Shown: in pieces, positions 8,220 through 22,659 of the stretch | How the letters are laid out: the number at the start of each line of letters is the position of its first letter | How positions within the stretch are numbered: the first letter of the stretch is position 1 | DNA from: Cyanobacteria bacterium UBA11153 | GTDB taxonomy: Bacteria > Cyanobacteriota > Cyanobacteriia > Cyanobacteriales > Coleofasciculaceae | Assembly: GCA_003511885.1 (NCBI GenBank) | Contig: DOIX01000043.1 | Coordinates: forward strand, 49,617 to 80,374 | Direction: 5' to 3' | Length of the DNA stretch: 30,758 nucleotides | Program-made: the position numbers and the translations under genes | The notes under the pieces: generated by a model | Told to the model about the DNA's origin: nothing | Database searches by the model: none | What the model saw: the letters and a program-made list of their open reading frames with translations, nothing else

Positions 8220-8828
8220 ATGAGAAGAACTATTGGCTTATTCATTAGCCTCTTATTCGCACTGACGACTCTCTTTGCATCCATAGCTACAGCCCAGGAA
8301 CATTCATTCGGAAACAAATCATTTAATCAATACGAAGGTTACTTACATCCTACCCAAGAGCCAGGTCCAGCATTTGAGTCTCCAGCCCAAGGTTATGGCA
8401 TCCTCCGCGTCCCCCGCAATCTCAGCTCCGCTACGATTGATGTTAATATAGTCGGTGTTAATTTGGCTGATATCACCGCCTTTCATATCCATTGCGGTTC
8501 TCCAGGTGTCCTCGGTCCGATTATCGTTAACTTTGGTCAGTTTGGTGACTTAAAAAACACGATCAAAAATGGTCGCTTATCTGTTTCAATTACTAACGAA
8601 AATCTCACCTTTATCAAACAACCTCCACCACCACCTTCTCTCTCTGGTGGATTCAAATTACCTTTACCGGAAGGTTGTCCTAGCGAACTCAATCTTCCCG
8701 GGCAAGTAAATACGATCGCAGGTTTGGATGCTTTAGCCAGAAAAGGTGTGCTTTACTTTAATCTTCACACCAAAGAACATGAATTCTTTGGCGAAATGCG
8801 AGGTCAAATCTATCCCGCAGCCGGATAA
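8220..8828 (+). CDS. Secreted CHRD domain protein
   Basis: A 202-residue exported protein. A signal peptide (MRRTIGLFISLLFALTTLFA, cleavage probably after ATAQ or nearby) precedes a single CHRD domain. Domain signatures are ITAFHIHCGSPGVLGPIIVN (about residues 82-101) and the terminal LYFNLHTKEHEFFGEMRGQI, which match the H-I-H-x-G and Y-x-N-x-H-T-x-x-x-x-GE-x-RG-Q-I motifs of chordin-repeat proteins. CHRD proteins are secreted or surface-bound; the bacterial role is not defined. The insert between the two motifs holds a poly-Pro run and one Cys, which could pair with the Cys of the first motif. It is the last gene of the DUF4336-AraC-CHRD cluster. Confidence 0.88.
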   Translation: MRRTIGLFISLLFALTTLFASIATAQEHSFGNKSFNQYEGYLHPTQEPGPAFESPAQGYGILRVPRNLSSATIDVNIVGVNLADITAFHIHCGSPGVLGPIIVNFGQFGDLKNTIKNGRLSVSITNENLTFIKQPPPPPSLSGGFKLPLPEGCPSELNLPGQVNTIAGLDALARKGVLYFNLHTKEHEFFGEMRGQIYPAAG

Positions 8829-8980
8829 CTTGGTAATTTGAAATTTTGCCTTATCGGGCAGGGGGACAGGAGGCAGAGAAAAGGATTGGGGATGGTTTAT
8901 CTTTTTCAAGAATGTACAGTTTAAATACTCCCGCAGCTTATAAACTGTCAACTGTCCACTGCTATCAAAACATCAAAGAA

Positions 8981-9360
8981 GCTGAGAGCCACCGTCTTTT
9001 AAGCGGTGGACGAAAACGAGTAACGGGTTAAAACCCGTCGTGTTAACTCTGAAAAGTGCTAAAATTAGAGAACCCATCGCTCTCTTTGACGAACCATGCA
9101 GGATATCCATAACTGGACTCCGAGAGCAGAAACGTAGCCGCAAGGTTGGCGATGAGGAGGCTCTGGGACGCATCCTGGAGGGTAAATTAAATTGCCTGCG
9201 GAGGCAACCTGACGGGGACGGGTAACCGTCTAGTTAAGAGTCAAAGAAGCAGGAAGAAAAGTGGAGAGGCGCGTCTATGACTAGCGTCACCCTTCGCTAT
9301 CATACCGCCTCTTATTAACTTCTTAAGCGCTCCCCCAGCTTATAGCTGGGGGAGTACGTC
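8981..9360 (+). ncRNA. Orphan HEARO/omegaRNA-like structured RNA element (ISC/IS200-605-type remnant)
   Basis: About 380 bases with no convincing ORF and unusually dense secondary structure. Hairpins seen: CCACCG/CGGTGG (8989-9009), ACGGGTT/AACCCGT (9023-9038), TTGCCT-GCGG-AGGCAA (9192-9207), GACGG-GTAA-CCGTC (9217-9230), a long-range AGAGGCG/CGCCTCT pair (9265-9312) and an 11-bp terminal hairpin CTCCCCCAGCT/AGCTGGGGGAG (9330-9354). The order of motifs GCCGCAAGG, GGACGCATCCTGG, then a GNRA-like-capped hairpin followed by TAGTTAAG resembles HEARO, the guide RNA of IscB nucleases as I remember it. The right end (strong hairpin, then TACGTCAAG, no T-run) resembles IS200/IS605 right ends. No IscB or TnpB gene follows, so this would be a nuclease-less derivative. 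A decayed tnpB 3' end or another structured RNA are alternatives. Confidence 0.55.
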
Positions 9361-9648
9361 AAGTCAAATATAGGGGACTTTCTGGCAAGAGAGTGTCTCA
9401 GAATAGGTCAGAAATTTCCTCTGTGATGGCAGCAGCCGGAGAACGAATACCTCCGGCAAGTTACGGGCACGCAAGGTATCGGACAGCGTGCTTAACTTTA
9501 GATTGCTTTTATATGCCAAAATTCTCGATCTGTGTTAAACTGGTTCCAGATGATTGAATTCGGTTGTACAGTTTGTTTTTATTCATATCCCAAATTACAG
9601 ACCTCTCCGGATCTAAATCTCTACACCATTCGATTCTGGAGATATTCT
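9361..9648 (+). promoter_or_regulatory. Long 5' leader of the RNA-binding protein gene, with two hairpins
   Basis: About 290 bases upstream of the rbp start hold two clean stems, CCGGAG/CTCCGG (9436-9456) and GCACGC/GCGTGC (9467-9491), then an AT-rich stretch. Cold-regulated rbp genes of cyanobacteria are known to have long regulatory leaders. Part of this could instead be flank of the adjacent element. An in-frame ATG at 9532 would add 39 non-RRM residues and is rejected as the start. Confidence 0.4.
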
Positions 9649-9954
9649 ATGTCAATTTACGTCGGCAACCTTTCTTATGAGGTTGGAGAAGAGGACCTCA
9701 AGCAAGTATTTGCAGAATATGGTTCTGTCAAAAGCGTTCAATTACCCATCGACCGGGAAACTGGACGGGTAAGAGGCTTTGGCTTTGTCGAAATGTCCTC
9801 AGAAACAGAGGAAGGAGCAGCAATTGAGGCTCTTGACGGTGCTGAGTGGATGGGACGCAGCTTAAAAGTTAACAAAGCGAAACCCAAACCAGAAGGCGGT
9901 GGCGGTCGCCGTGGCGGTAATAGTGGCGGATACGGCGGCGGTCGCCGCTACTAA
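9649..9954 (+). CDS. rbp: Single-RRM glycine-rich RNA-binding protein (Rbp family)
   Basis: A 101-residue protein with one RNA recognition motif. RNP2 is IYVGNL (residues 3-8) and RNP1 is RGFGFVEM (42-49), with the usual aromatic residues for RNA stacking. A short Gly/Arg-rich tail (GGGGRRGGNSGGYGGGRRY) follows, as in cold-inducible cyanobacterial Rbp proteins. These act in the cytoplasm in RNA stability and localisation, and many are induced by cold. The ATG at 9649 has GGAG seven bases upstream and starts exactly at the conserved N-terminus. The next gene is rpsU; an rbp-rpsU neighbourhood is described for Anabaena. Two hairpins, one a terminator, separate the genes here. Confidence 0.93.
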   Translation: MSIYVGNLSYEVGEEDLKQVFAEYGSVKSVQLPIDRETGRVRGFGFVEMSSETEEGAAIEALDGAEWMGRSLKVNKAKPKPEGGGGRRGGNSGGYGGGRRY

Positions 9955-14127: not shown

Positions 14128-14239
14128 GAATTTATTCCTCTCTCCAATTGGGAAAGTCTATCGCTATATTTATGTTTTTGTATATTACACTCCATTGGCT
14201 ACCAGAACTCGAACGATTACTCCTAGCAGCCAGAAGGAT

Positions 14240-14360
14240 GACTATTTAACCGGGCGTTGCCAGTTAGGGCTGACTGAATGAAAAAGTCGGATCGTGAGGG
14301 CGGGGAACTCAAGAGCAACAGGCAAGGGTTTTCATACTGCTTTAACCCGACGAGCGATCG
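14240..14360. other. GC-richer structured block between purH and pckA, unassigned
   Basis: The 704-base gap between divergent purH and pckA holds a block that is less AT-rich than its surroundings and can fold (CAGT/ACTG around 14258-14273, and TTGCC with GGCAA). A 76-residue minus-strand frame over it (14223-14453) does not look like a protein I know. It may be an RNA gene, a mobile-element remnant or chance. The rest of the gap holds a CRISPR relic and the pckA promoter region. Confidence 0.2.
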
Positions 14361-14497
14361 AAAAATGCCAGGATTTTGAGATGAAAGAAAGCTAATAATG
14401 CCACTTTTGGGTTGAAAAAAAACGGTAAAATCATTCTCTGGTAAGTGTTCCAATTTAACCTATTTTCTTATCCCCTTCTCCCATCAAACAGATTATA

Positions 14498-14606
14498 GTT
14501 TAAATATGCTCAAATCCCTTTGAGGGATTGAAACGAATCTATCAAAGACGAAAGAATTATTTACAATGCGGAGAAACAGACTAAAATCCATTTTAAGGAT
14601 TGAATC
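14498..14606 (+). CRISPR. Degenerate one-spacer CRISPR remnant, no cas genes
   Basis: The 37-base segment 14498-14534 begins GTTTAAAT and ends in the palindrome AATCCCT-TTG-AGGGATT followed by GAAAC, the layout of a standard cyanobacterial CRISPR repeat. A second 37-base segment (14570-14606) matches it at 26 positions, including AAATCC, TTT and GGATTGAA. The 35-base interval 14535-14569 has the length of a spacer, giving a 72-base period. The second copy has the decay expected of a trailer-end repeat. No cas gene is in the window, so this is an orphan relic or a chance palindrome. Confidence 0.5.
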
Positions 14607-14772
14607 TATGCAATATTTGCATATAAACCATTTGAGTGAAGCTGAAACATACTAACTAAGTTCCCTACTCCCCATTAGCTATAAGCCCAATTTATCAATA
14701 CAGGTACGGGAGAGCCATTAATACTAAGAAATTATTAATTTTCCCAAACATTAGCCGATTTTTGATAAAACA

Positions 14773-14798
14773 GATACAAATATTCTCTTATTTGTATC
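14773..14798 (+). promoter_or_regulatory. Perfect 10-bp inverted repeat upstream of pckA (candidate operator)
   Basis: GATACAAATA and TATTTGTATC are separated by TTCTCT, 33 bases before the pckA start. The symmetry and position fit a dimeric regulator site or an mRNA hairpin just ahead of the ribosome binding site (AAAGGAGGGA at 14817-14826). The regulator is unknown. Confidence 0.5.
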
Positions 14799-14831
14799 AC
14801 TGTTAACCTTTTTAGCAAAGGAGGGACTGGG

Positions 14832-21720: not shown

Positions 21721-22659
21721 ATGATGAAGGCTAACAAGTTTTGGGCTATCGCAACTATCGGGATAGTCACGCTTTTAGCCGGGGCTGGTTACTGGTATGT
21801 GTTTTTATTCTCGGTGCCCCTCAGCTAGATGCCCCTACAACCAAGGTTGGAGATAGCCGACTTACCTTTAGTGAAAACTTTTCACAGCAAGGCGATGGGG
21901 GAAGTCCGACAATATGGTCTAATCCTTCCTCCAGACTACAATCAAAACCCCAAAAAACGCCATCCTGTAATTTTCTTACTCCATGGAGGGCATGATAATG
22001 CTCGTGCTTGGGTGGACAAAATTGGTATATTACCCGTAGTCGATGGACTCTATCGAAGTGGAAAACTACCCCCATCAATTATAATTACCCCTGATGGTAA
22101 CAATAAACGAGGTTCGAGTCCTTTATGAGACCCTGATTATTATGATGGACTTTATGGTAATGTTGGTACTCTCATCGGATCTGAGCTTCCCAATCTTGTA
22201 AAATCCCGTTATCGAACATTAAAATCGCCTTAGTTTTGGGCAATGGGTGGCTTATCTTCTGGAGGTTGGGGCGCTTTCAATATTGGATTACGTCACTTGG
22301 ATAACTTCAATATTTTCTTTAGCCACATTGGTTATTTTACAGATGAAAGCGGAGCTGAAAATAGCCCTCAAGAGATTGTCAAAAAGCTATCACTAACACA
22401 GCGCCAGTCTTTGCGGATTTACCTTGATGCTGGTAAAGATGACTTGATGACCCAAGAATTTATTAATTTTACTAGAAAATTCCATCAAACTTTAAATCAA
22501 TTGGGAATACAAAATGTATTTTATATCTTTCCAGGTGGTCACGGTTTGTCTGGAGCTAATTAGGGCTGGAATTATGACCAAAAACACGTAGCTGATTCAT
22601 TGATTTATGTAGGGAAACAGTTCAAATACGGATTGGTAAAATTAGGAAAAATAAATTGA
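21721..22659 (+). pseudogene. Esterase-D-like alpha/beta hydrolase with four in-frame stops
   Basis: One reading frame of 312 codons from ATG 21721 (ribosome binding site AAGGAGG) to TGA 22657-22659 encodes a whole exported esterase. It has a signal or anchor (WAIATIGIVTLLAGAGYWYV), an oxyanion segment VIFLLHGGHDNARAW, the nucleophile elbow GGLSSGG (Ser179), the acid region YLDAGKDD and the catalytic His segment FPGGHGLSGAN. It is interrupted by TAG at codon 36 (21826), TGA at codon 136 (22126), TAG at codon 171 (22231) and TAG at codon 281 (22561). There is no frameshift or deletion. Each stop can arise by one transition from CAG or TGG, and SPL-W-DPDYYDG is the expected sequence at the second. 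The product would be unable to form the enzyme unless stops are read through. Confidence 0.9.

Follow-up and report, generated by a model that had tools for sequence, protein, structure and literature searches.

A stretch of 30,758 nucleotides from the genome of Cyanobacteria bacterium UBA11153 (the window) contains, at 8967-9362 of the forward strand, a transposon-like element of 396 bases which, judged by sequence comparison, is a tnpB-less IS200/IS605-type element containing the TnpB guide-RNA region. We assign it to this type because of its ends, its homology to the 3' end of tnpB and a 28-residue remnant of tnpB coding sequence. The reading that we favour, and regard as rather probable, is that of a non-autonomous element whose standalone guide RNA would be transcribed, would bind TnpB supplied in trans and would direct its cleavage.

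Anatomy of the element and its homology to tnpB

An earlier note on this DNA had described a non-coding, guide-RNA-like block at 8981..9360. The block is real, the motifs quoted for it and its right-end hairpin are present in the sequence, and the list of open reading frames holds none of at least 80 amino acids within 8981-9360, but the feature is longer, covering 8967-9362 and preceded by a motif at 8962-8966. The folding energy computed for 8981-9360 is -147.5 kcal/mol (z -6.18), and none of 100 dinucleotide shuffles folded as well.

The element, all parts of which are given on the forward strand, follows directly after CTATC (8962..8966) and ends in TACGTCAA. Related elements carry CTAYC before their left ends, and by analogy CTATC may be named the target, or TAM. 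The left end (8967..9056) contains two hairpins, GCCACCG..CGGTGG(A) and ACGGGTT..AACCCGT, and has matches in other copies and beside a tnpA gene of the same genome (C339). It is followed by TGC-TAAAAT (9057..9065), an extended -10-like box of the putative standalone RNA, then by a 5' RNA domain of tnpB-less copies (9080..9158; the match to covariance model R1 spans 9080-9188 and scores 100.8 bits) and by a core in common with the 3' end of tnpB, corresponding to the TnpB reRNA/omegaRNA region (9159..9260; model R2, 102.0 bits). The tnpB coding-end remnant at 9194..9277 matches TnpB residues 393-420 with 82% identity (L164:1536-1619). The right end (9304..9362), recognized from its sequence and from matches in other copies, includes the hairpin 9330-9354, composed of CTCCCCCAGC-TTATA-GCTGGGGGAG and followed by TACGTCAA.

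The guide had previously been placed 5' of the scaffold, an orientation that has to be reversed. Since the 3' part of the block corresponds by homology to the tnpB 3' end together with the right end, the putative guide lies 3' of the right end, from 9363, and according to the excerpted text of PMC8612924 the guide of ISDra2 is likewise DNA 3' of the right end. By analogy with the ISDra2 reRNA, we take the 16 nucleotides of flanking DNA at 9363..9378, GTCAAATATAGGGGAC, as the candidate guide.

The next gene on the forward strand, about 290 bases downstream of the element, encodes an RRM protein (rbp, 9649-9954, RRM_1). The window copy lacks 5 bases from the 5' strand of one helix, and two of the four pairs of its first hairpin are broken; because of this damage to its helices, this copy may be inactive or decaying.

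Further copies of the block, on which the earlier note had made its reading depend, exist in the same genome and in other cyanobacterial genomes. Searching the genome with 8940-9380 gave at least 46 matches, itself included, with 40 of the 383 candidates scored. The best-shared part, 9164-9273, sits at the 3' end of tnpB genes with 84-89% DNA identity, and the edges of the block match the left and right ends of the same tnpB elements. The possibility that the block is the 3' end of a decayed tnpB, which had been named as a refutation, therefore holds in part: the block does include such an end, but it is more than decayed tnpB. As a full explanation simple tnpB decay is rejected, yet it fits several fragments and C288, an apparent plain deletion derivative in which zinc-ribbon residues are still encoded. 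Other tnpB-less copies have in common a 5' segment, GGATATCCATAACTGGACTCC..GCAGAAACGTAGCC, which cannot be recognized as tnpB.

All six tnpB-bearing elements examined have CTAYC in front of the left end, and their right ends show GTCAA; the same holds for most of 21 tnpB-less elements, the left-end search pattern having been picked from sequences already seen. Among the tnpB-less elements the left end was not found for L146, L148, L151 and L276; in the same survey the left end of G001:C602 is doubtful, the right end of L279 is lost and C242 was not parsed. The element has the features of non-autonomous IS200/IS605 elements, namely two ends with subterminal hairpins, no transposase gene and dispersed copies, together with two of those of TnpB reRNA/omegaRNA, namely a sequence homologous to both the tnpB 3' end and the right end, and conservation of RNA structure in that region.

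The genome also encodes candidate partners without interruption. At C32 it holds a TnpB frame without a stop that carries the same RNA core and OrfB_IS605, TNB and HTH domains, and whose product is related to the solved TnpB chains 8bf8 and 8h1j (E 4e-32). An intact Y1 TnpA (PF01797) is encoded at C339, so that a TnpA with matching ends is present in the same genome: the inverted left end beside it is identical to that of the window at 93% over 29 bases and at 71% over 75 bases. Across the nine genomes with the orphan RNA, a same-family TnpB without an in-frame stop was found in seven among the loci examined, the one in G126 being only 60% identical; G422 and G423 had no uninterrupted same-family TnpB among the loci examined.

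The 5' domain, its distribution and the promoter-like box

We described the RNA by two covariance models, R1 for the 5' domain (built from 10 sequences, the window included) and R2 for the core, which also includes the window. In the genome of the window R2 has 18 matches and R1 has 15, four of which exceed 95 bits (the window, C266, C231 and C242). When stricter filters were applied to 386 genomes of the phylum, R1 matched nine at E<=0.001, and it exceeded 40 bits in four of the 386 (G000, G092, G126 and G315); with so few genomes matched, the RNA is evidently rare.

R2 matched in eight of nine chosen genomes, and 30 loci obtained from its 53 matches there, together with the 18 from the genome of the window, make up 48 core loci. 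Twelve of these 48 score above 50 bits with R1, and none of the twelve encodes this TnpB beyond a 42-residue C-terminal stub; one of them, L214, also has an OrfB on the opposite strand (31% identical). Conversely, R1 does not rise above 38 bits at any of the 14 loci where the TnpB match spans at least 400 residues, ten of which are free of in-frame stops. The remaining 22 loci consist either of fragments of tnpB or of other kinds of tnpB-less element. When L145, L146 and L151 are included, nine cyanobacterial genomes hold 15 known copies of the 5' domain, and besides these there is a remnant in G315.

An exact-pattern scan of a collection of genomes from 84,980 species returned eight loci, seven of them cyanobacterial (Brasilonema, Scytonema, Limnofasciculus, UBA11370 and an unclassified MAG), and these seven match both models or carry the RNA. 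The eighth, L147 from a Woeseiaceae MAG, was rejected as a chance match (R1 8.5 bits, E 0.91, no R2 match).

Five complete-looking tnpB-less elements (L273, L274, L276, L277 and L278) have the core together with other 5' sequences, to which R1 gives 25-32 bits, which indicates that a 5' domain of the R1 type is not obligatory. They come from the genomes that hold L145, L148 and L151 (G420, G421 and G423), and are possibly further families of standalone TnpB guide RNAs; 5' modules may have been exchanged between elements. At least two alternative 5' sequences can be distinguished, one in L273, L277 and L278 and one in L274 and L276, with similar ends.

A box resembling TATAAT with at most one mismatch lies 35-42 bases upstream of a GATATCC anchor in 13 of the 15 copies, in a search window that was chosen after the result of a first test had been seen; in 1000 dinucleotide shuffles the number of such copies averaged 0.70 and was at most 5. 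Six windows of equal width further upstream contained the box in 0, 0, 0, 0, 1 and 1 copies. The first test, whose search window missed some copies, had given 8 of 13 (shuffle mean 1.55, maximum 8), and in a thinned set the box was present in nine of ten copies, two of them from G423. The TGC-TAAAAT box of the window at 9057-9065 was not flagged by a general sigma-70 scan.

Conservation of RNA structure

The alignments from which pairing was counted differ in composition. A7 comprises the 14 near-full-length tnpB loci and the broken L240, and A6 comprises 17 tnpB-less loci, twelve with the R1 domain and five with other 5' sequences, excluding L145, L146, L151, L275 and tnpB fragments. A long insertion kept L151 from being used in A2 and A3, and A4 was made without L145, L146 and L151; A5 includes all three. 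A1 contains a shortened L145 row and had no other use.

Alignments A5-A7 were fitted to the models, so that their counts lean towards structure, and their rows are related by descent; read in this light, the 15 tnpB-bearing rows have 99.4% paired cells in the core, with 10 pairs and 27 cells changed on both sides, and none of 500 shuffles reached any of the measures. RNA structure is therefore maintained within the coding end of tnpB. In the 17 tnpB-less rows the core has 96.5% paired cells, with 9 pairs and 43 cells changed on both sides; the five measures were reached by 0, 1, 0, 1 and 0 of 500 shuffles, and slid controls were far lower. An unfitted MAFFT alignment (A2) has double-sided changes in 9 of 42 predicted pairs.

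Support for the 5' domain is weaker, with 93.7% paired cells, 7 pairs (reached by 5 of 500 shuffles) and 22 cells (0 of 500) changed on both sides, and with further pair types that 39 of 500 shuffles reached. A hand-made structure of this domain with two local hairpins gave 90.9%, 8 pairs (10 of 500) and 28 cells (0 of 500), and 140 of 500 shuffles matched its further pair types. Two Brasilonema copies (L145:3045-3350 and L146:1845-2176) carry a large extra hairpin insertion inside one core helix, which suggests that the RNA tolerates long insertions in that helix.

Proposed function, alternatives and comparison with known systems

The sequence of events that we propose starts with the loss of tnpB from an element that would have kept both ends and the TnpB reRNA/omegaRNA core, with a dedicated 5' RNA domain attached to the core and preceded by a promoter-like box of its own. 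The element would be mobilized by a TnpA whose gene lies elsewhere. Its transcript would run through the right end into the flank and load into a TnpB encoded elsewhere, which would then cleave the empty donor site, composed of CTATC and the flank, with GTCAAATATAGGGGAC (9363-9378) as guide, and repair after cleavage would restore the element. The 3' flanks differ among copies, which fits site-specific guides, since these require different flanks. The best candidate for an empty site came from joining the flanks of the window element and comparing them with G001, a genome of the same genus: TATC is added in the right place, but 318 of 2000 random left flanks gave an equal gain. For the G092 copy, the two flanks are found at separate places in related genomes. 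We give about even chances to the broader proposal that such elements form a cyanobacterial class parasitizing TnpB, consisting of ends and a self-promoted guide RNA with an exchangeable 5' domain, which the TnpB and TnpA of other elements guard and move.

An account that we find rather unlikely treats the element as an inert ends-only element of the PATE or MITE kind, in which the DNA hairpins alone are of use, in mobilization by TnpA, and the RNA-like interior is functionless left-over tnpB. It has a precedent in a PATE-like element of Halanaerobium that joins a left-end hairpin to the final 58 nt of tnpB and a right end, as described in the excerpted part of PMC7290912, and it is in keeping with C288 as a plain deletion derivative and with the damaged helices of the window copy. 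However, a common 5' domain that is not tnpB would be unexpected of inert remnants, as would a box present in nearly all copies and covariation of the core in copies without tnpB.

We consider it improbable that the element is a standalone regulatory RNA built from parts of a TnpB guide RNA, whether a decoy titrating TnpB or an RNA adopted by the host, for example as the leader of rbp, a role the earlier note had raised. The box and 5' domain of its own, and a position shortly upstream of the RRM protein gene, would suit such an RNA, but the retention of both transposon ends and the variation of the 3' flanks are better explained by mobile, self-targeting elements, and in G001 the adjacent 20 bases of the region upstream of rbp, where the contig ends, do not contain the element.

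The identification as an orphan HEARO, the omegaRNA of IscB, is almost certainly wrong: the genome is rich in HEARO and a HEARO-iscB pair follows about 360 bases after the end of one orphan copy (C242), but the block itself resembles tnpB and has no match to the HEARO model (RF02033), and HEARO identity was ruled out on these two grounds. No RF02033 match reaches the gathering score (83 bits) anywhere in the window, and the family is absent among the eight Rfam matches at E<=10 on 8800-9550. The genome itself served as positive control, with 26 RF02033 matches, 15 of them over the cut-off, none of which coincides with the block; four HEARO sequences from it that were compared are unlike the block. 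Six near-complete IscB N-terminal domains were found among nine PF14239 matches in the genome, and just downstream of the block there is no iscB reading frame, the next gene on the forward strand being that of the RRM protein. What survives of the original proposal is its spirit, a guide-RNA-like block without a nuclease gene that would need a nuclease from elsewhere, but the family is that of TnpB and not of IscB. With 26 matches set beside six such domains, many HEARO copies of this genome may themselves be orphans.

Other known RNA families were also rejected as candidates, since no Rfam 15 family reaches its gathering score over the block and the sole gathering match in the window is the CRISPR repeat at 14498. 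This is a single CRISPR-DR5 repeat (RF01318, 14498-14534, 47.1 bits) between two genes, and it is solitary, with no second copy of at least 20 bases in 14130-14830. Elsewhere in the window, two reading frames within 21829-22563 (21829-22128 and 22243-22563) look by eye like pieces of one esterase-like gene, possibly interrupted.

If the favoured reading of a trans-acting TnpB guide is true, TnpB guide RNAs are separable from tnpB mRNA and can spread as independent parasites. The element would then provide a natural trans-acting TnpB guide, a possible step from cis-encoded transposon guides to separate guide RNAs, and a naturally occurring guide scaffold that stands alone and has its own promoter. 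A testable function would also follow for tnpB-less insertion-sequence derivatives, which are usually considered debris.

Standalone, trans-acting copies of IscB omegaRNA have reportedly been described (Altae-Tran, 2021). The window RNA is like HEARO and these copies in being guide-RNA-like, in the absence of a nuclease gene and in its presumed action in trans; it differs in belonging to another family, with another nuclease and with a guide expected at the 3' side, whereas the HEARO guide is 5'. In ISDra2, as the excerpted text of PMC8612924 has it, the TnpB-bound reRNA matches the tnpB 3' end and the right end, its last ~16 nt come from the flank and constitute the guide, next to a TAM, and a role of TnpB in restoring the element at the donor joint has been proposed. 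The window element shares with that system, to the extent covered by the same excerpt (PMC8612924), an RNA region over the tnpB 3' end and the right end, a left-end motif and a guide expected from the 3' flank; compared with the reRNA described there, the window RNA is not part of a tnpB mRNA, comes without a tnpB gene, and has an additional 5' domain of some 80 nt as well as a promoter-like box of its own. With the PATE-like element, as far as the excerpt of PMC7290912 describes it, the window element has in common a left-end hairpin, the last tnpB bases, a complete right end and the lack of a transposase, and it differs in its conserved non-tnpB 5' RNA domain, promoter-like box and covarying RNA. 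Among the titles and abstract beginnings returned by searches of an open-licence collection, none concerned a TnpB guide RNA that stands alone and has its own promoter. IS605 elements reduced to their ends and the 3' end of tnpB are already described, in the excerpted part of PMC7290912; what appears to be new is a guide RNA of the TnpB type that has become separate from tnpB and has a promoter-like box of its own, a dedicated 5' domain and selection on its structure.
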